In this document: in pieces, positions 28,136 through 38,564 of the stretch
Numbering within the stretch: position 1 is the first letter of the stretch
Layout: the number at the start of each line of letters is the position of its first letter
NCBI GenBank assembly: GCA_947304405.1
Contig: CAMZBB010000016.1
Location: 1-38,564 of the forward strand
Source of the DNA: an uncultured Clostridia bacterium
Lineage (GTDB): Bacteria; Bacillota; Clostridia; Saccharofermentanales; Saccharofermentanaceae
Reading direction: 5' to 3'
Length of the DNA stretch: 38,564 nucleotides
The notes under the pieces: generated by a model
What the model saw: the letters and a program-made list of their open reading frames with translations, nothing else
The model's database searches: none
What the model was told of the DNA's origin: nothing
Made by a program: the position numbers and the translations under genes

Positions 28136-28666
28136 TTAAGCATGCTGTATTGAAGTCCGCACTTTGGCAAATGGCTTTAAATACATAAGAGGAACCGCTC
28201 CGACTATTGCGGCACTGGCCTGAATGCCGTTGGGGATCACCGAACCCAAAGCTGCTGCGACACCGTACATAAACGGAAGAGATTCAAACGCGAAGTATCC
28301 TGCAACCATGATGACCTCTGCGATGAACGAAGCAGAGAGCTTTCGCCCAAGTGAGACCTTACCTTCCTTGTCCCTCTTAAGAAGGAGTCCTGCAACAAAT
28401 CCCATTATTCCCTTTATCAGGAACGTGGCGACTGCATACTGCGGATAACCTGCAAGAAGATCAGCCAAAGTAGATCCTATGGCACCCGGGATAAATGCGA
28501 ATGGTCCGAGTATATATGCACTGACAAGTATTACTAGGTCACCGAGATTGATGTGTCCTATCGCTGTAGGTATGTGAAGTTCGGTTCCGACAAACGTCAG
28601 TGCTGCGAGCACTCCTGCATATGCTATCTTCCTTAAGTTCTTTTTGTTCTTTTCATTGATGCTCAT
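28136..28666 (-). CDS. ECF transporter S component (substrate-binding membrane subunit)
   Basis: A 176-residue membrane protein with five to six helices. After a basic start it has YAGVLAALTFVGTELHIPTA and GHINLGDLVILVSAYILGPF, then GAIGSTLADLLAGY, the pattern of ECF S components. These pair with a shared EcfA-EcfT module, which is not in this window. The bound substrate is not readable from the protein. However, its leader carries a Cys/Met-rich ORF and attenuator and an operator shared with the cysteine operon, so a sulfur-containing nutrient is the best guess. Confidence 0.88.
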   Translation of the reverse strand: MSINEKNKKNLRKIAYAGVLAALTFVGTELHIPTAIGHINLGDLVILVSAYILGPFAFIPGAIGSTLADLLAGYPQYAVATFLIKGIMGFVAGLLLKRDKEGKVSLGRKLSASFIAEVIMVAGYFAFESLPFMYGVAAALGSVIPNGIQASAAIVGAVPLMYLKPFAKVRTSIQHA

Positions 28667-28684
28667 AAATATTTCCTTTCCAAT

Positions 28685-28712
28685 TAAAACGGGAATTCCG
28701 AAGAACTCCCGT
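28685..28712 (-). terminator. Attenuator hairpin before the ECF S-component gene
   Basis: ACGGGAGTTC-TTCG-GAATTCCCGT on the minus strand (28689-28712), with one mismatch and a stable UUCG-type loop, followed by TTTTAATT. It lies between the leader ORF stop and the ECF start. Its 5' arm can instead pair with 28766-28774 inside the leader ORF. Confidence 0.75.
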
Positions 28713-28738
28713 GTTATTTCTTTATTGTTTCTTTTCGG

Positions 28739-28828
28739 TCATGCGCGACACATCGCACAAACCATACACGGGAGAGTGGTCTGACAGGAACACATGCACA
28801 TCAAAGTTGTAGTTGTGAAAGCCTTCAT
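28739..28828 (-). CDS. Cys/Met-rich leader peptide of the ECF gene (29 residues)
   Basis: ATG at 28828 follows a consensus AGGAGGTAAGTGT ribosome site. The 29-residue peptide opens MKAFTTTTLMCMCSC and has cysteines at 11, 13, 15, 21, 24 and 27, plus methionines at 10, 12, 22 and 26: ten sulfur residues after position 9. Codons 19-22 (CTCCCGTGT) are exactly complementary to the 5' arm of the downstream terminator (28706-28714). A stalled ribosome at Cys11-Cys15 would leave this segment free to block the terminator. A 7-pair hairpin at 28742-28759 could be a pause site. Confidence 0.78.
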   Translation of the reverse strand: MKAFTTTTLMCMCSCQTTLPCMVCAMCRA

Positions 28829-28855
28829 ACACTTACCTCCTGTTTGATTGGGATA

Positions 28856-28889
28856 AAGTTATCACTATTTACCTGCCATGTCAATAGGT
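28856..28889 (-). promoter_or_regulatory. Promoter and Rrf2-type operator of the ECF leader
   Basis: On the minus strand TTGACA (28879-28884), a 17-base spacer and TAACTT (28856-28861). The 19-base ACCT-centred repeat at 28871-28889 (ACCTATTGACATGGCAGGT on the minus strand) covers the -35 box. It differs at two positions from the operator before the cysteine operon (35712-35730). Confidence 0.7.
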
Positions 28890-28927
28890 TTATCGCGGTT
28901 ATGAAAAACATCAATAAAACCTGTTAA

Positions 28928-29779: not shown

Positions 29780-30535
29780 CTACAACATTGCATATTCCAT
29801 GAGGAGCATGTTCATCTGCTCTTCATCATGGACATATGTATGTTCGTGGGCAGGTCCCTCATAGATCTGCCTTCCATCGCGGTATATCAGAAGTCGGTTG
29901 ATCGGAACTTCTTCCCAAATTTCATTATCCAAAGGTTTCGTTGCGAAATATACATAGCCGTCGCATGTCTTTCTAAACATCGTTCCGGCTTCATTTTTGT
30001 GTACGTACAGATTTTCGCCGTCAAAGATCAAAAGGTTCAGTTTGTTGCCCTCAGAAAGCCTGGCAACCAGAGAATCCATCAGTTCAAATCTTTCTTTTTC
30101 TTCAGTAACGCCATCGTATTGATCAAGAATATAAAGGAACAGTCTTTCACTGTCCGTTTCACCTTCCTGTACATCAGCATACGGAAGAAGTTCTTCTGAT
30201 TCAAAGATCGTTCCGTTATGAACCAGTGTCCATTCACGGCCGTTGGCATCTTTTCCTGTGAACGGGTGCGTATTTTCATATGAAGTATGTCCGATCGTTG
30301 CCCTTCTGATGTGTGCAAACATTCCCCGGCATGTAAAACCGTCAGACAATAAACTTACGATCTTCTCGCTGCATGTTGAATTCAACGGTTCTTTAACGAG
30401 AGTAACAGAACCATTTTCATCCCATGAAGCAATGCCCCATCCGTGCGGGTTATATTCGCCGTGCTTGAAGAACTCCTTAAGTTCTTCAATGACGTCTATA
30501 TTCCTGTCAGATGAGACTCCGAAGACCTCACACAT
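29780..30535 (-). CDS. Class II glutamine amidotransferase (EgtC/YafJ-like)
   Basis: A 251-residue enzyme with the N-terminal nucleophile Cys2 (MCEVFGVSSDRN). The Ntn-amidotransferase pocket is seen in FAHIRRATIGHTSYENTHPF and LVHNGTIFESEEL. No synthase domain is attached. Stand-alone relatives such as EgtC and YafJ hydrolyse gamma-glutamyl bonds. It overlaps the glutamate-cysteine ligase gene by 8 bases, which suggests it acts on a gamma-glutamyl-cysteinyl product. That is the same pairing as EgtA/EgtC, but no EgtB or EgtD is present. Confidence 0.88.
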   Translation of the reverse strand: MCEVFGVSSDRNIDVIEELKEFFKHGEYNPHGWGIASWDENGSVTLVKEPLNSTCSEKIVSLLSDGFTCRGMFAHIRRATIGHTSYENTHPFTGKDANGREWTLVHNGTIFESEELLPYADVQEGETDSERLFLYILDQYDGVTEEKERFELMDSLVARLSEGNKLNLLIFDGENLYVHKNEAGTMFRKTCDGYVYFATKPLDNEIWEEVPINRLLIYRDGRQIYEGPAHEHTYVHDEEQMNMLLMEYAML

Positions 30536-31748
30536 TAAGCAGATACTCCTGATCTTTTTCCGTCAGAGCGCGGTTTGCCAGCTCCATCAAATATTTATAC
30601 CATTCTCTTGCGGTCTTTTCACCATAGATCTTCGCATCAAGACCATTGACGATGATCTCGTCAACGGCTTCCTGAATCTGTTCAAAAGAATCGATAAAAC
30701 CAAGTTCCTTTTCGAGGATGGCAAGATTCTTTTCTGAATAGACAAGCCCCTTAATGAGTGCCACGTAACTCAATGCACGATTAACTGGAACACTGTCAGC
30801 GACCCTGATCTCGATGTATTTCTTTACGCGGAAATGGAAAAAACCCATGGATATGAAATGTTCGACCAGTTTTTGTTTGCGTTTATTACCCAGGTCACCT
30901 TTGAAGACGCCTTCGTTTATCAGATCCTCTGCTGTCTTGCTCCCTACACTGATCGTCTCACCTTCATCTGTCAAAAGGATAAGCGGGGTATGAGTAATAA
31001 CATCAGCTATCTTTTCATAACCGAAATCCTTGTCAAACGAATGCGGATAAAAGCCGGTCCTGGCAGGATCGAGATCGCCCCACTCCTGAATACGCAGAAG
31101 ATGCTTTTTATTAGATCCTTTCTCGACCACCGAGTCCTCGTAACTCTTATTCTCAAATGCGATCATAAGTATCGGAGATATCTTTTGGAGCACGAGCAGT
31201 TTACGCACAAGATCTTTTTCAGAGCTGTAGTCAACGGAGATCTGAACCGATGAGGAAGCCCTCATCATGTACTTTCCGTATTTACCGCTGCTGCGGAAAT
31301 ATGCATCCATATACTTATAGCGTTTTTTGTGCGAAAGTGGGATCTCATCAGGATCGATCTTTCCCGATTCAACAAGAGGGAGGTTGCCTTTTGTTATTAT
31401 GTGATATCCCCGCTCCGCAAAGACAGGCTTCCAAAGATCCAGGAATTCACGGTAGATATCCTCGATCTCTGAAATATCGGAATGCGGATCGACACTTATC
31501 TCGAACTGGCATGAAGGTTCTAAAGTAACGGAATAACCCGGGGTATAGTAACCTACCGGGTATCCGTCCATGTATATGATCTCTGCATTAATCCGCGTGG
31601 CGACTTCTTTTATCAGTTCCGTCACTTCTTCAAAACCGATCGGGAAGCCCCGGTCATTAACCACAAAGTGTTCCACTTCAAGACCGAGATTCTGTCCTAT
31701 CGTCTCGCCTGATCTTATGTAATCTACTATGTATTCTTTGACACTCAT
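30528..31748 (-). CDS. Glutamate-cysteine ligase, GCS2 family
   Basis: A 406-residue ligase that would form gamma-glutamylcysteine from Glu, Cys and ATP. The family opening GLEVEHFVVND (residues 22-32), the active-site strand VTLEPSCQFEISVDPHSD (about 73-90) and RASSSVQISVDY (about 163) match GCS2/EgtA-type enzymes. No glutathione synthetase domain follows, so gamma-glutamylcysteine is the likely product, as a thiol buffer or a precursor. AGAGGTGG precedes the ATG, 10 bases after metI-like. Its place in a cysteine-supply operon supports the substrate. Confidence 0.9.
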   Translation of the reverse strand: MSVKEYIVDYIRSGETIGQNLGLEVEHFVVNDRGFPIGFEEVTELIKEVATRINAEIIYMDGYPVGYYTPGYSVTLEPSCQFEISVDPHSDISEIEDIYREFLDLWKPVFAERGYHIITKGNLPLVESGKIDPDEIPLSHKKRYKYMDAYFRSSGKYGKYMMRASSSVQISVDYSSEKDLVRKLLVLQKISPILMIAFENKSYEDSVVEKGSNKKHLLRIQEWGDLDPARTGFYPHSFDKDFGYEKIADVITHTPLILLTDEGETISVGSKTAEDLINEGVFKGDLGNKRKQKLVEHFISMGFFHFRVKKYIEIRVADSVPVNRALSYVALIKGLVYSEKNLAILEKELGFIDSFEQIQEAVDEIIVNGLDAKIYGEKTAREWYKYLMELANRALTEKDQEYLLNV

Positions 31749-31758
31749 GTTCCACCTC

Positions 31759-32412
31759 TTAAGTCTTTCTCGTCTTCTTTGACAGTCTGATTCCCAATTC
31801 CTGTATGAGCATTACCATGATTATCAGGAGCGTAACCGTAGTCCAAAGAACGTCCTTCTGATATCGGTAATAACCGTACTGAAGAGCTATCGCACCAAGT
31901 CCGCCTCCACCGATGACTCCTGCCATTGCCGAGTAACCCAGAACTGTTGCTACGTTGATCGCGCCACCCTGAAGAAGCGAAGGAGTTGCTTCGGGAATGA
32001 TGAAATGAAGTATCGTGTAGATCGGTGATGCGCCCATTGATGTCGCAGCTTCGATTATTCCCGGATTCACTTCGTTAAGTGATGACTCGACCATTCTTGC
32101 AACGATTGGAATCGCACCTATCGTAAGAGGAACGATCGCCGCAGTCGTTCCTATCGACTGACCTACTACAAATCTCGTGAAAGGAATAAGAAGTACAAGA
32201 AGGATCAGGAACGGCAATGAACGCGTGATATTGACTATCGCTCCGATCACAAAGTTGACTCCACGGTTCTCGAGCAGTCTTCCCCTGGAAGTAGAATACA
32301 GGATAACTCCAAGAGGCATGCCGACAAGATATGAAAACAGCGACGCAAAGAACGTCATTACGAACGTCTCCCAAACGCCTGATATTATGGCATCTTTAAT
32401 GTAATCACTCAT
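31759..32412 (-). CDS. metI: Methionine-type ABC transporter permease
   Basis: A 217-residue permease with five helices. The EAA-type region ESSLNEVNPGIIEAATSMGA and GYSAMAGVIGGGGLGAIALQ are characteristic of MetI. It imports methionine or a related sulfur amino acid together with the ATPase it overlaps by 8 bases. The start is set by GGAGGTGA inside the ATPase gene. No MetQ-type binding lipoprotein is in the operon. Confidence 0.93.
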   Translation of the reverse strand: MSDYIKDAIISGVWETFVMTFFASLFSYLVGMPLGVILYSTSRGRLLENRGVNFVIGAIVNITRSLPFLILLVLLIPFTRFVVGQSIGTTAAIVPLTIGAIPIVARMVESSLNEVNPGIIEAATSMGASPIYTILHFIIPEATPSLLQGGAINVATVLGYSAMAGVIGGGGLGAIALQYGYYRYQKDVLWTTVTLLIIMVMLIQELGIRLSKKTRKT

Positions 32413-33412
32413 TTACGGTCACCTCCGATACTGACAGCCCGCCTGCCTTGAAAAAATCTATTGCGGTCTGACGGTCTTTTGCGGGCTTAGGCAGTTCAAT
32501 GATCATCTGCCCGTAACCTATGCCGCCTACGCTTTTTGTATTTGCACTCAGTATGTTCACTTTGAGTCCGGTCTGTTCAACCAGGTTAGAGATGAAAGGC
32601 ACATTTGACTGAGTTCCGTCAAAGACTAACCTTACGATCTGTCCGTTTACGTCAGACGGATCAAAAGGATTGCTCGGGAATACGAGCTTCTTCGCGGCCT
32701 TCGACTGAGGATTTGAGAATACGTCCTTAACTTCGCCGATCTCGGCGAGATTTCCGTCATCAATGATCGCGACGCGGTCGCAGATCTTTTCAACAACGCT
32801 CATCTCGTGCGTGATGATGACTATCGTAAGCTTTCTCTCCTCGTTTATCTTCTTCAAGAGATCGAGTATCTCACCCGTTATCTTCGGATCAAGCGCGCTT
32901 GTAGCTTCATCGCAGAGCAACACTTTGGGATCAACGGCAAGAGCCCTTGCTATCGCAACTCTCTGCTTTTGGCCGCCCGACAATCTTGCGGGATATTCGT
33001 TTGCCTTTTCGGAAAGGCCAACGATCTCAAGCATCTGCTTTGCTTTCTCTCTTCTTACTGCACGGGGCGTTCCTATGATCCTCAGCGACTGCTCTACGTT
33101 TTGTATGACGGTACGCTGGTTAACGAGATTAAATCCCTGGAAGATCATTGAGATCGAATGTCTTACTTCTCTCAGTTCACGCGCCTTAAGAGATGCAAGA
33201 TCTTTGCCGTAAAAACTTACCGTACCGGAAGATACTTCTTCCAAACGGTTTAACGTACGGACAAGCGTTGACTTGCCTGCACCGCTCATTCCGATTATGC
33301 CGAAGATCTCTCCTTCCTTAACCGTGAGACTTACATCCTTGAGCGCGGTAAATTCCTTACCGTCGTTCTTATAAGTCTTATATACATTTTGAAGTTCGAA
33401 TACGTTGTCCAT
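32405..33412 (-). CDS. metN: Methionine-type ABC transporter ATPase with NIL domain
   Basis: A 335-residue ATPase. Walker A GMSGAGKSTL near residue 43, signature LSGGQKQRVAIARAL near 144, Walker B VLLCDEATSALDP near 164 and the H-loop IVIITHEM are intact. The C-terminal 90 residues form the NIL domain that binds methionine and shuts the transporter, so MetN rather than another importer is indicated. I set the start at the ATG (33412), which overlaps the preceding stop by one base (TGATG); a TTG at 33415 is less likely. Confidence 0.94.
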   Translation of the reverse strand: MDNVFELQNVYKTYKNDGKEFTALKDVSLTVKEGEIFGIIGMSGAGKSTLVRTLNRLEEVSSGTVSFYGKDLASLKARELREVRHSISMIFQGFNLVNQRTVIQNVEQSLRIIGTPRAVRREKAKQMLEIVGLSEKANEYPARLSGGQKQRVAIARALAVDPKVLLCDEATSALDPKITGEILDLLKKINEERKLTIVIITHEMSVVEKICDRVAIIDDGNLAEIGEVKDVFSNPQSKAAKKLVFPSNPFDPSDVNGQIVRLVFDGTQSNVPFISNLVEQTGLKVNILSANTKSVGGIGYGQMIIELPKPAKDRQTAIDFFKAGGLSVSEVTVNE

Positions 33413-34326
33413 CAATCAAATAATCCTTTGCTCAGATATCTGTCTCCTCTGTCCGGGAAGACAGTTACGATGTTTCCTTCATCGATCTCTTCAGCAAGTC
33501 TCAAAGCTGCAGCGAGAGCCGCACCGGAAGAAGATCCCGCTAAGATCCCTTCGTTCTTTGCAAGACTCTTTGAAGCTGTGAATGCCTCATCGTCCGTTAC
33601 TTTAATGACCTTATCGACAAGTGTTATGTCCATGGTGTCAGCGATAAAGTCATTGCCTATTCCTTCAATGTTGTAATCAAAATGTTCGCCGCCGCCGATC
33701 GTTGAACCGTAAGGATCTGCGAGCACGCCCTTAATGTCCGGGTTCTGCTCTTTCAGGTATTTGACAACACCTGTAAATGTTCCGCCGCTTCCTGCTCCGG
33801 CTACAAAGTAATCAACCTTGCCGTCAAGCTGTGAATATATCTCAGGACCTGTTGTCTCATAATGTGCCAGCGGGTTTGCGGGATTTCTGAACTGTCTTAA
33901 CGAGATCGCACCGGGGATCGTCTTAAGGAGTTCTTCCGCTTTCCGTTCTGCTCCGAGCATTCCTTCTTCTCTTGATGTGTGTACTATTTCCGCGCCCAGA
34001 GCGCGCATGACCTGCTGCTTTTCGATAGAGAACTTTTCAGGAACCGTGAAGATTACCCTGATACCCTGATTAAGTGCTGCAACTGCGATTCCAATTCCGG
34101 TATTGCCTGCCGTTGCGTCAACGATCGTGCCGCCTTCCTTAAGGATTCCGCGCTCTTTCGCATCGTCGATCATATAAACGCCGATACGGTCTTTAACGCT
34201 TCCGGCAGGGTTCATAAGTTCAAGTTTTGCATAAACGTTTACTCCGGGCTTAACGCCCATATGATTGATCTTGAGGATCGGAGTATTGCCGATCAAGCCT
34301 CTGATATCTTCAAATACATTATTCAT
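33412..34326 (-). CDS. mccA: Cystathionine beta-synthase/cysteine synthase family (MccA-like)
   Basis: A 304-residue PLP enzyme of the CysK fold. The PLP lysine lies in NPAGSVKDRIG (residue 45 from this start). The substrate loop reads DATAGNTGIGIA instead of the usual EPTSGNTG of CysK, which resembles MccA, the O-acetylserine-dependent cystathionine beta-synthase of Bacillus. With the MccB-like gene just upstream, homocysteine to cysteine conversion is the likely role. The ATG at 34326 has GAGG 8 bases upstream; the ATG at 34332 is only two bases from it. Distinction from a plain cysteine synthase needs an alignment. Confidence 0.82.
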   Translation of the reverse strand: MNNVFEDIRGLIGNTPILKINHMGVKPGVNVYAKLELMNPAGSVKDRIGVYMIDDAKERGILKEGGTIVDATAGNTGIGIAVAALNQGIRVIFTVPEKFSIEKQQVMRALGAEIVHTSREEGMLGAERKAEELLKTIPGAISLRQFRNPANPLAHYETTGPEIYSQLDGKVDYFVAGAGSGGTFTGVVKYLKEQNPDIKGVLADPYGSTIGGGEHFDYNIEGIGNDFIADTMDITLVDKVIKVTDDEAFTASKSLAKNEGILAGSSSGAALAAALRLAEEIDEGNIVTVFPDRGDRYLSKGLFD

Positions 34327-34338
34327 TTTCATAACCTC

Positions 34339-35493
34339 TTAAGCCTTTACTGAATTCTCGATTGCCTGCTTAAGATCTGCGATGAGATCTTCCACGTCTT
34401 CGATTCCTACCGAGAATCTGATGAGTTCGTCAACGATACCCACTTCTTTTCTGATTTCTGAGGGGATCGCCGCATGAGTCATCGTAGCCGGATGGCAAAC
34501 GAGTGATTCAACACCGCCAAGACTCTCAGCCAGCGTGATAAGTCCCAGGTTCTCGAAAAACTTCTTGTAGTCGTATTTATCGTTCAGGACGAATGAGATC
34601 ATCGCGCCTGCTCCGTCAGCCTGTTTTTTCTGGACTTCATAACCCGGATCTGATTCAAGGCCCGGATAGTAAACCTTGCTCACAAAGCCGCTGCCTGCCA
34701 GCCATCTGGCAATCTTTTCCGCATTGGCAACATGTCTGTCCATACGAACGCCCAGAGTCTTGATGCCGCGGATGATAAGAAAGCTGTCCCAGGGAGCGAG
34801 CACTCCGCCAATGGCGTTCTGAAGATAATAAAGTCTGTCAGCAAGTGCCTTGTCTTTAACAACGACAAAACCTGAGATAGTATCAGAATGACCACCAAGA
34901 TACTTTGTTCCGCTGTGGATGACGATATCCGCGCCGAGCGTCAGAGGACGCTGCAGATAAGGCGTGAGGAAAGTGTTGTCTACTATAGTGAGCTTGCCGT
35001 GCTTTTTAGCGATCTTGGAAACGGCTTCAATATCAGTAATGGTAAGAAGCGGGTTTGCCGGCGTCTCAATATATACGGCCTTTACGTCATCATCAATGGC
35101 GGCCTCAACAGCTTCAAGATCTGAAGTGTTTACGATCTTATAGGTTATATTGAAGTTCTTGAATACGTTATCCAGGATCCTGAAAGTTCCGCCGTAGATG
35201 TTGTCTGATACGACGAGCTTGTCACCGCTCTTGAAAAGAGACAGAACAGTGTTAATTGCTGCAAGGCCTGAAGCAAAAGCCAGACCATATTTTCCTTCCT
35301 CAAGATCTGCGATAAGTTTCTCAAGTGCAGCTCTGGTAGGATTGCCGGTTCTGGAATACTCCCAACCTCTGTTCTTGCCGAGACCGTCCTGTTTATAGGT
35401 AGAAGTCTGATAAATGGGAACGTTAACTGCGCCCGTTACTTCATCTCCGTCAATACCACCGTGTATAAGTAAAGAATTTCTTTTAATGCTCAT
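34339..35493 (-). CDS. mccB: Cystathionine gamma-lyase/synthase (MccB-like)
   Basis: A 384-residue PLP enzyme of the Cys/Met-metabolism family. The PLP lysine is Lys197 in HSGTKYLGGHSD, with cofactor contacts EYSRTGNPTR, FASGLAAI and YIETPANP. Next to an MccA-like gene it probably splits cystathionine to cysteine (reverse transsulfuration); a gamma-synthase or methionine gamma-lyase activity cannot be excluded. It is the first gene of the operon, behind a leader peptide and attenuator. AAGGA lies 8 bases before the ATG. Confidence 0.88.
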   Translation of the reverse strand: MSIKRNSLLIHGGIDGDEVTGAVNVPIYQTSTYKQDGLGKNRGWEYSRTGNPTRAALEKLIADLEEGKYGLAFASGLAAINTVLSLFKSGDKLVVSDNIYGGTFRILDNVFKNFNITYKIVNTSDLEAVEAAIDDDVKAVYIETPANPLLTITDIEAVSKIAKKHGKLTIVDNTFLTPYLQRPLTLGADIVIHSGTKYLGGHSDTISGFVVVKDKALADRLYYLQNAIGGVLAPWDSFLIIRGIKTLGVRMDRHVANAEKIARWLAGSGFVSKVYYPGLESDPGYEVQKKQADGAGAMISFVLNDKYDYKKFFENLGLITLAESLGGVESLVCHPATMTHAAIPSEIRKEVGIVDELIRFSVGIEDVEDLIADLKQAIENSVKA

Positions 35494-35515: not shown

Positions 35516-35548
35516 AAATAAAAAGCCCGGGATCAGATTTCCCGGGCT
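35516..35548 (-). terminator. Attenuator terminator before the mccB-like gene
   Basis: AGCCCGGGA and TCCCGGGCT (35524-35548) form a perfect 9-base stem with a 7-base loop, followed on the minus strand by TTTTTATTTC. It lies upstream of the first operon gene and downstream of the leader ORF. The segment ACAGCCCG leading into its 5' arm (35543-35550) can pair with CGGGCTGT at 35626-35633 in the leader ORF. Confidence 0.85.
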
Positions 35549-35570
35549 GTTAAGTCAGATGCTTTTTTAG

Positions 35571-35669
35571 TTAACATCGAATATCGTCAAGGCGCATTCC
35601 TGTGCAGTCAAACGCCGAGCCCGATACAGCCCGTAATACATGCATTCGACAACACATCATCTTATTCAT
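35571..35669 (-). CDS. Cysteine leader peptide of the mccB operon (32 residues)
   Basis: ATG at 35669 follows GGAGG with seven-base spacing. The peptide opens MNKMMCCRMHVLRAV, with tandem cysteines at 6-7 and further cysteines at 22 and 32, and five methionines in all. A perfect terminator follows 23 bases after its stop. A ribosome halted at Cys6-Cys7 would cover bases to about 35637, leaving the antiterminator segment at 35626-35633 free. This is the layout of transcription attenuation responding to cysteinyl-tRNA. Confidence 0.8.
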   Translation of the reverse strand: MNKMMCCRMHVLRAVSGSAFDCTGMRLDDIRC

Positions 35670-35697
35670 ATTGTGCCTCCTTCAATCTGATGAACAC

Positions 35698-35730
35698 ATT
35701 ATAGCCTAATTACCTACTATGTCAATAGGT
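35698..35730 (-). promoter_or_regulatory. Promoter and Rrf2-type operator of the mccB operon
   Basis: TTGACA (35720-35725), a 16-base spacer and TATAAT (35698-35703) on the minus strand, near consensus. The 19-base repeat ACCTA-N9-TAGGT (35712-35730) covers the -35 box, a repressor position. It is shared with the ECF gene promoter. Confidence 0.78.
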
Positions 35731-35735
35731 TTATC

Positions 35736-35769
35736 TTGATTTACCTACTGACCTTTAGGTATAATAGGT
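35736..35769 (+). promoter_or_regulatory. Promoter and operator half-sites of the Rrf2 gene
   Basis: TTGATT (35736-35741), an 18-base spacer and TATAAT (35760-35765). ACCTA at 35743, ACCTTTAGGT at 35751-35760 and TAGGT ending at 35769 give overlapping ACCT/AGGT half-sites inside the promoter, consistent with autorepression. Confidence 0.68.
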
Positions 35770-35794
35770 AAAAAGGAATTTGGAGGTTGGTCAA

Positions 35795-36190
35795 ATGATT
35801 TCCACCAGGGGTAGATACGCATTAAGGGTAATGATAGACCTGGCCGAGAATAACACCGGCGAACACATCCCGCTCAAGGACATAGCCGAAAGACAGGAAA
35901 TCTCAAAGAAGTACCTTGAGATAATAGTTAAGGATATGGTTACAGGCGGTCTGATCGTCGGAGCCAGCGGAAAAGGCGGCGGCTATAAGCTCGTCAAGAA
36001 ACCCGAAAAATACACAGTCGGCGAGATCTTGGAGTTAATGGAAGGAACACTCAATTCAGTAGTATGCCTGGCCGACAAGAAATACAAGTGCGACAGAAAG
36101 AAGATCTGCAAGACTCTTCCCATGTGGAAAGAGTTTGACGGGATCGTTCACGACTATTTCTACGGAAAGAAACTTACTGATCTTCTTTAA
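35795..36190 (+). CDS. Rrf2-family transcriptional regulator
   Basis: A 131-residue winged-helix regulator: the N-terminal MISTRGRYALRVMIDLAEN, recognition helix ISKKYLEIIVKDM and wing GASGKGGGYKL are typical of Rrf2. Cysteines at 91, 99 and 105 lie where IscR binds a [2Fe-2S] cluster (92, 98, 104), so a cluster-sensing form is possible; CymR, the cysteine regulator of Bacillus, lacks them as I recall. It is divergent from the sulfur operon, and ACCT/AGGT sites occur in both promoters, so it is the likely repressor. ATG at 35795 has GGAGG 8 bases before it; a TTG at 35780 is rejected. Confidence 0.93.
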   Translation: MISTRGRYALRVMIDLAENNTGEHIPLKDIAERQEISKKYLEIIVKDMVTGGLIVGASGKGGGYKLVKKPEKYTVGEILELMEGTLNSVVCLADKKYKCDRKKICKTLPMWKEFDGIVHDYFYGKKLTDLL

Positions 36191-37716: not shown

Positions 37717-38564
37717 TTAAAGAGCAAGACGTAAGATCTCTATAAATCTTGTCTTGTCGAGCGGGACGTAGTGTCCTACGCTGCCGCCTGCTGTTGCGCG
37801 CTCTGCCATGACCTCAAAGTCTTTGTCATCGATCCCAAGTTCGGATAAATGAGTCTTAAGTCCTAACTTTTTGAAGAATCGCTCCAATTCTTCAGATAAC
37901 AGAAGCGCACGTTCTTTTTCTGAATAGTCATACGGGTCCTTTCCGTAGACTCTGCTTGCAAGAAGCGCAAGCCTCCAGGGCTTTACATCTGACATATATT
38001 TGGTCCATGCCGTGAATACGACCGCCATGCCTTCACCGTGAGTAATGTTGTACTGGGCTGACAGTTCGTGTTCGATACGGTGTGACCCCCAATCGGCTCT
38101 TCTTCCGGCATCAAGGAAATTATTGTGTGATACCGAAGCCAGCCACTGAAGTTCTGCTCTTGCGTTTATGTCTTTGGGATCATCGATGAGTCTTTGAGCA
38201 TTTACGAGAAGTGCCCTCACCGCGCCCTCGATAAGATAGTCCGTCGTGTCTGAATTCTTCTCATCGGAAAAATATCTTTCAAGAAGATGAGACAGAACGT
38301 CTGCGATACCTACATATGTCTGATAAGCAGGAAGATTTACCGTATACCTCGGATTCATGATCGCAAACTTAGGTATTATCCGGTCATCTTCAAAACCTTT
38401 CTTCCACTCTCCATATGAGAGGATCGCACAGTTGGATGTCTCGGAACCGCTCGATGCCGTTGTCGCGATCACTCCGATGTTAAGGACATTTTCGGGAGCT
38501 ATACCCTTATCGAAGAAATCCCAGACATCGCCATCGTACGGTATACCGAGAGCTATCGCCTTGG
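37717..38564 (-). CDS. Iron-containing alcohol dehydrogenase (partial, N-terminus outside window)
   Basis: The C-terminal 281 residues of a group III alcohol dehydrogenase related to BdhA/YugJ butanol dehydrogenases. TTASSGSETSN is the nucleotide-side motif; GIADVLSHLLERY gives the first metal ligands (Asp, His) and HRIEHELSAQYNITHGEGMAVVF the remaining histidines. It should reduce aldehydes with NAD(P)H. The reading frame is open to the window edge, so the true start lies past 38564; a GTG at 38472 is internal. Confidence 0.92.
   Translation of the reverse strand, partial: KAIALGIPYDGDVWDFFDKGIAPENVLNIGVIATTASSGSETSNCAILSYGEWKKGFEDDRIIPKFAIMNPRYTVNLPAYQTYVGIADVLSHLLERYFSDEKNSDTTDYLIEGAVRALLVNAQRLIDDPKDINARAELQWLASVSHNNFLDAGRRADWGSHRIEHELSAQYNITHGEGMAVVFTAWTKYMSDVKPWRLALLASRVYGKDPYDYSEKERALLLSEELERFFKKLGLKTHLSELGIDDKDFEVMAERATAGGSVGHYVPLDKTRFIEILRLAL

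Follow-up and report, generated by a model that had tools for sequence, protein, structure and literature searches.

In classical attenuators of the trp and his type, protector, anti-terminator, and terminator helices compete, and stalling of the ribosome at control codons decides the outcome. In Firmicutes, such tasks fall to T-boxes and riboswitches, and amino-acid leader attenuators were long considered rare there (PMC2965389). Two groups of cysteine leaders resemble those studied here. The uORFC-8-2 motif before cysS in Rhodobacterales is described as a tandem-Cys uORF with an intrinsic terminator for which ribosome-mediated transcription attenuation was proposed (PMC8632094). In actinobacteria, polycysteine leader ORFs, which are short and contain Cys codons, precede cys genes such as the mycobacterial cys operons (PMC1262725), and cysteine-responsive attenuation is attributed to them (Canestrari et al. 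2020, as cited in PMC13236596).

The DNA analyzed here, referred to as the window, is a stretch of 38,564 nucleotides (contig 16, positions 1-38564, of a 2.16-Mb draft genome); its close relatives in the public records are rumen and gut MAGs (Saccharofermentans sp., Clostridiales, Ruminococcaceae bacterium). The gene for an ECF transporter S component in this window is very likely controlled by ribosome-mediated transcription attenuation in response to charged tRNA-Cys, as part of a Cys-leader regulon of Saccharofermentans-type Clostridia. A first-pass annotation had proposed a 29-codon Cys/Met-rich ORF with a ribosome site, followed by a terminator, and each of these was found where it had been placed. 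All elements of the ECF leader lie on the minus strand:

28136-28666, minus strand: ECF transporter S component, the gene under the leader (PF07155, 104.7 bits against a cutoff of 26.7)
28689-28714, minus strand: intrinsic terminator, from folding; 5' arm (T5') ACACGGGAG at 28714-28706, 3' arm (T3') at 28698-28689, then a U-tract
28739-28828, minus strand: Cys leader peptide ORF MKAFTTTTLMCMCSCQTTLPCMVCAMCRA, 29 codons plus TGA
28766-28774, minus strand: segment A (CUCCCGUGU), the anti-terminator 5' strand by complementarity, beginning 10 nt past codon 15
28784-28798, minus strand: control codons 11-15, reading C-M-C-S-C; orthologs have their CC doublet at this place in the alignment
28836-28841, minus strand: Shine-Dalgarno (SD) AGGAGG, predicted from sequence and duplex energy to pair with segment A when the leader takes its "off" (reset) fold
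28856-28884, minus strand: sigma-70-type promoter just upstream of the leader ORF, read from the sequence as TTGACA (28884-28879), 17 nt, TAACTT (28861-28856)
28869-28889, minus strand: 17-bp inverted-repeat operator candidate CCTATTGACATGGCAGG (with flanks), from a pattern search, overlapping the -35 box of this promoter

The leader ORF carries six Cys codons (codons 11, 13, 15, 21, 24, and 27) and four internal Met codons. At the Cys codon rate of 1.36% found across 34 window genes, at least six Cys in 28 codons would be expected with P = 1.9e-6. The terminator stem pairs 28712-28703 with 28698-28689 around a four-base loop and is followed by TTTT (-14.4 kcal/mol). The complementarity between a nine-base ORF segment and the 5' arm of the terminator, also noted in the first-pass annotation, is exact: CTCCCGTGT (28774-28766) is the reverse complement of ACACGGGAG, and an ORF/terminator-arm complement of at least 9 nt arose in 0.4% of dinucleotide shuffles (P = 0.004). 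Calculated duplex energies in this leader were -13.8 kcal/mol for SD:A and -17.1 kcal/mol for A:T5'. Overall, the locus contains several parts typical of an attenuator: an SD with an ORF of clustered codons, an intrinsic terminator, and a positioned alternative helix with covariation, the last at the level of the leader family.

A second leader, complete and built alike, occupies 35730-35524 before mccB and heads an mccB-cysK-metNI-gcs2 operon; its TTGACA promoter is inside the operator candidate CCTATTGACATAGTAGG. The operon, its leader, and a divergent regulator are as follows:

30528-35493, minus strand: sulfur operon, on the same strand as the ECF gene and upstream of it (gene calls and family matches)
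30528-31748, minus strand: GCS2 ligase (glutamate-cysteine ligase), operon member
31759-32412, minus strand: metI, operon member
32405-33415, minus strand: metN, operon member
33412-34332, minus strand: cysK-like gene, operon member
34339-35493, minus strand: mccB, operon member
35524-35550, minus strand: GC-rich terminator of the mccB leader (ACAGCCCGGGA...UCCCGGGCU), from folding, with a U-tract after it
35571-35669, minus strand: second Cys leader ORF MNKMMCCRMHVLRAVSGSAFDCTGMRLDDIRC, ending in a stop codon (sequence and ortholog comparison)
35589-35595, minus strand: late-ORF anti-SD segment GCGCCUU of the mccB leader (coevolution analysis)
35626-35633, minus strand: segment A of the mccB leader (CGGGCUGU), an exact 8-nt complement of ACAGCCCG at 35550-35543
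35675-35682, minus strand: SD segment AAGGAGGC of the mccB leader, from sequence
35710-35730, minus strand: the same operator candidate, CCTATTGACATAGTAGG, over the -35 box of the mccB leader promoter (pattern search)
35780-36190, plus strand: Rrf2-family regulator (CymR/IscR-like), divergent from the mccB leader (family match)

Inside the sulfur operon, an EgtC-like class-II amidotransferase adjoins the GCS2-type glutamate-cysteine ligase (29780-31748). A scan of the window against Rfam gave no riboswitch or T-box, SAM riboswitches included, at the gathering score, and five leader peptides matched no family in NCBIfam or Pfam.

Conservation was examined in a genus sample of 85 genomes, the source genome included. 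Among the 30 genomes with the closest S components, a leader directly precedes the ECF gene in 14; in 12, it comes straight after a sulfur-operon gene, either metI or the amidotransferase, with no leader between; in 3, it adjoins a GntR/aminotransferase regulator; and the remaining one (L011) has an unassigned context. About half of the closest congeners are thus without a leader before this gene. The Cys doublet of the ECF leaders is spelled TGCTGT, TGCTGC, TGTTGT, or TGTTGC, synonymous variation that indicates coding selection, and the downstream CTC CCG (pairing segment CTCCCG) is invariant in the 14 ECF leaders, which points to selection on the nucleotides. One ECF leader (L009) has CMCP instead of CC. 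Among mccB orthologs with at least 83% identity and enough upstream sequence, 53 of 54 have a CC leader, nearly all of the form (M)CC(C)(R)M. Both the Cys codons and the paired segments, whose conservation the first-pass annotation had made one test of its proposal, therefore recur in related leaders, and the doublet and the same arrangement before other sulfur genes support its suggestion of a leader that stalls at cysteine codons and attenuates the ECF gene.

The pattern ATGTGYTGYCGNATG occurs in multiple copies in two genera of the family, this one and one other, and is rare elsewhere in the order; three matches to the MCCRM pattern from outside the family (L209-L211) were without operators and were read as chance. 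MCCRM-type leaders also precede metQ, metN, metY-type OAH sulfhydrylases, mccB paralogs, a LysR gene, and one iron alcohol dehydrogenase (in L184), a homolog of which, at 37717-38472, is apparently cut by the window end. The LysR-type regulator gene has its own MCCRM leader in L179, L183, and L190, and the Cys-leader regulon may feed into this other regulator. Most non-ECF leaders (L078-L207; for example, 35571-35669 in the window) end in CGA TGT TGA/TAA (Arg-Cys-stop), and most carry TGT TGT CGA ATG with synonymous change almost absent.

The alternative helix was assessed in 74 unique leaders, in which the terminator was located independently and its 5' arm was then matched with its strongest duplex partner in the part of the ORF that follows the Cys codons. 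The mean A:T5' duplex was -18.5 kcal/mol, compared to -11.6 kcal/mol for shuffled ORFs, with p <= 0.05 in 53 of the 74. The duplex starts about 10 to 16 nt past the last Cys codon of the doublet in 57 of the 74 leaders and 3 to 9 nt past it in the rest; given the size of the ribosome footprint, RNA would be expected to emerge about there when the stalled codon sits in the A site. Matched A:T5' pairs averaged -18.4 kcal/mol against a mismatched mean of -14.2 kcal/mol, and 0 of 10,000 permutations did as well, although permutation leaves shared ancestry in, and such counts, here and below, are not strict probabilities. Matched pairs also beat mismatched pairs within the mccB group and within the other-gene group. 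Compensatory variants of A and T5' were seen by inspection (GGGCUGU/ACAGCCC, GGGCA/UGCCC, GGGCUUGU/ACAGGCCC, and CUCCCGGGC/GCCCGGGAG). This covariation comes from sister leaders and not from the ECF clade, within which the segments are too conserved for covariation to be informative (2074 of 10,000 permutations); p values for single ECF-leader duplexes were mostly 0.03 to 0.2. The search for the ORF-hairpin-ECF arrangement in related Clostridia that the earlier annotation called for thus yielded ECF leaders in 14 genomes, with helix covariation at the family level.

When transcripts were folded up to, and without, the terminator, segment A paired with the leader's own SD in 11 of 11 ECF leaders folded, these being thermodynamic folds in which part of the sequence does not vary. 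Leaders of the mccB and metQ types differ in that their SD pairs with a late-ORF segment, which closes a domain that holds A. Matched SD:late-ORF duplexes averaged -11.1 versus -8.4 for mismatched ones (0 of 10,000 permutations as good), and the late-ORF segment coevolves with the SD spacer (GGAGGCG/CGCCUU, GGAGACAG/CUGUCUU, and GGAGCGUAACAG/AUGUUGCGCUCUU). The SD:late-ORF and A:T5' helices cross and so should exclude each other. SD:A was dropped as a general pairing for all leader types, being true of the ECF leaders and not of the mccB and metQ types. A UCGAAU:AUUCGA helix running from the Cys codons to the ORF end was likewise dropped as a general protector; only 10 of 72 leaders contain the two halves together. 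The reset of the switch, which had appeared unclear from the sequence in the earlier annotation, now has a candidate explanation in these folds, namely, sequestration of A by the leader's own SD in the ECF leaders.

From these elements we infer the following mechanism. When cysteine is short, the ribosome would stall at the leader Cys codons; segment A (CUCCCGUGU) would emerge just ahead of the stalled ribosome and pair with the 5' arm of the terminator, and transcription would continue into the ECF gene. With ample cysteine, or with no translation of the leader, A would be paired within the leader, either held by its own SD (ECF leaders) or enclosed by the SD:late-ORF helix (mccB and metQ types), and the terminator would form. 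A second layer of control probably comes from an Rrf2-type repressor acting at the inverted repeat that overlaps the -35 box.

The earlier annotation had named cysteine or methionine as the signal; the first of these stood, and methionine is now less favored. A leader that senses methionine, with the Met codons around the Cys doublet as control codons, would fit the four internal Met codons of the window leader, the MCC(C)(R)M motif of the mccB and metQ leaders, and the presence of metN, metI, metQ, and metY among the targets. However, several ECF leaders have T, K, or another residue in place of the Met that precedes CC (LTCC, HKCC), while CC stays and varies only synonymously. The products of the locus also argue against methionine: MccB, CysK, MetN, MetI, GCS2, and the ECF S component, a set picked after the operon had been seen, hold 4 Cys in 1825 amino acids, versus 154 in 9784 for the remaining window genes (P = 5.6e-8). 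The rate in those genes predicts about 29 Cys for the set, whereas Met, at 33 versus about 54, is only mildly low. The S component has no Cys in 176 amino acids, and two further genes between the leaders (28928 and 29780) have a normal Cys content. Cys depletion is the expected look of proteins made under cysteine starvation. Moreover, mccB and cysK serve Cys synthesis from Met or homocysteine, which speaks against a methionine signal. Cysteine is thus favored by the sequence evidence as the sensed amino acid, and methionine sensing is very unlikely.

The composition of these short, Cys-rich peptides could also suggest a nascent-chain arrest peptide, or a metal- or thiol-sensing peptide like CruR/CRCcut, in place of a simple codon gauge, and CCRM and the terminal RC are kept at both the residue and the nucleotide level in most mccB/metQ-type leaders. 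Beyond CC, however, the leader types differ (CC-FEVTLPRMTGIC in ECF leaders and CCRMHYTRAVS... in mccB leaders), and the genes under the leaders belong to sulfur amino-acid metabolism rather than to metal handling. Codon usage points away from a peptide sensor as well: the leaders have 250 TGT to 59 TGC (250/309 TGT), versus 27 to 131 in window genes (131/158 TGC), and such use of the rare TGT codon is as expected for tRNA sensing. The codon after a leader Cys is usually CGA, the rarest Arg codon in window genes. An arrest or metal-sensing peptide is accordingly given little credence. It is more improbable still that the ORF is a chance short frame before an ordinary terminator, with control exerted through the promoter operator only; the conserved operator over the -35 box could regulate alone, but the leader ORF, the Cys doublet, and the A:T5' pairing recur and coevolve in 74 leaders. 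A tRNA-Cys-sensing attenuator remains the preferred reading.

With respect to that operator candidate, a search of the genome with up to 3 mismatches gave only two sites, both preceding Cys leaders, and the reversed control pattern gave none. The inverted repeat CCTATTGACATAGTAGG overlaps the -35 box of nearly every Cys leader promoter, and a further, similar inverted repeat is found at 35740-35776. The divergent regulator at 35780-36190 belongs to the Rrf2 superfamily; it scored 83.6 bits against the CymR equivalog model NF047409, below the cutoff of 195. It is the candidate binder of the inverted repeat over the -35 boxes and probably the protein that acts there.

The S component had been thought, in the first-pass annotation, to bring in a sulfur compound. 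CbiQ/EcfT is encoded elsewhere in the source genome, as expected for an S component that uses a shared EcfT. A sulfur ligand would agree with the position of the ECF gene in 26 of the 30 genomes with the closest S components, where it either has a Cys leader (14 genomes) or comes right after genes of the sulfur operon. However, just one clear relative has a solved structure, 4hzu_S (HmpT/PdxU2; E = 3.9e-10, profile 2.7e-13), from which pyridoxamine was extracted and identified as the substrate (PMC4860826). Close homologs (65 to 73% identity) are divergent from a pdxR-type GntR/aminotransferase (MocR) gene, which suggests that these homologs are B6 importers; the one such regulator scanned (L029) scored 388 bits, over the PdxR equivalog cutoff of 320. 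In L029, L030, L031, L059, and L060, ATCTGGTTAT repeats lie between the ECF S homolog and the MocR regulator. PdxU transporters belong to PdxR regulons (PMC5320631), as in the context of these homologs; unlike them, the S component of the window clade sits under a Cys leader. None of the 85 genomes of the genus yielded PdxS, and sulfur-side and pdxR-side homologs have the same residue at most pocket positions, both of which also count against a sulfur ligand. Of the 4HZU pocket (E41, H84, Q87, Y120, N140, and Q143), four of six published positions are kept (Y, N, and Q) or conservatively changed (E to D), and two differ, His84 and Gln87 being Lys85 and Met88 in the window protein. Thus, the HmpT/PdxU2 relationship and the pdxR neighborhood point away from a sulfur compound, which is now rather doubtful, and toward a vitamin B6 vitamer, itself a candidate rather than a proven ligand. 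A B6 vitamer, which would feed PLP-dependent Cys enzymes, is the most likely substrate, with about an even chance of being correct; some ligand of neither kind is unlikely. If B6 is imported, tRNA-Cys starvation might directly control its uptake, and these PdxS-less bacteria might couple PLP supply to cysteine demand through a shared Cys attenuator, an idea that we hold tentatively, at somewhat less than even chance.

In a clade of rumen Clostridia, a multigene sulfur regulon appears to operate through Cys leader peptides, and the leader gives an otherwise uncharacterized ECF S component both a regulatory signal and a testable ligand hypothesis. Our search of a mostly open-access literature found no report of a Cys leader peptide joined with an ECF transporter, with Clostridia, or at such a regulon scale. 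The uORFC-8-2 motif differs from the window leaders in belonging to Alphaproteobacteria and in having the single target cysS and no ECF gene; the likeness is one of described design, and the part of that account available describes no SD:A or SD:late-ORF helix (PMC8632094). The actinobacterial leaders are without conserved terminators, and Rho or translation attenuation has been proposed for them (PMC1262725); their Cys run is near the stop codon, and in mycobacteria they are leaderless. The window leaders would share with the classical trp and his attenuators a three-helix logic decided by stalling at control codons. Unlike in those systems, segment A is part of the ORF, a short way downstream of the predicted stall, and its predicted protector partner is the leader's own SD segment, so that the reset would be self-contained, with the switch segment hiding the leader's own ribosome site. 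The mechanism is therefore of a known kind, while the clade, the set of targets, and the proposed SD-based reset are new relative to the literature searched.
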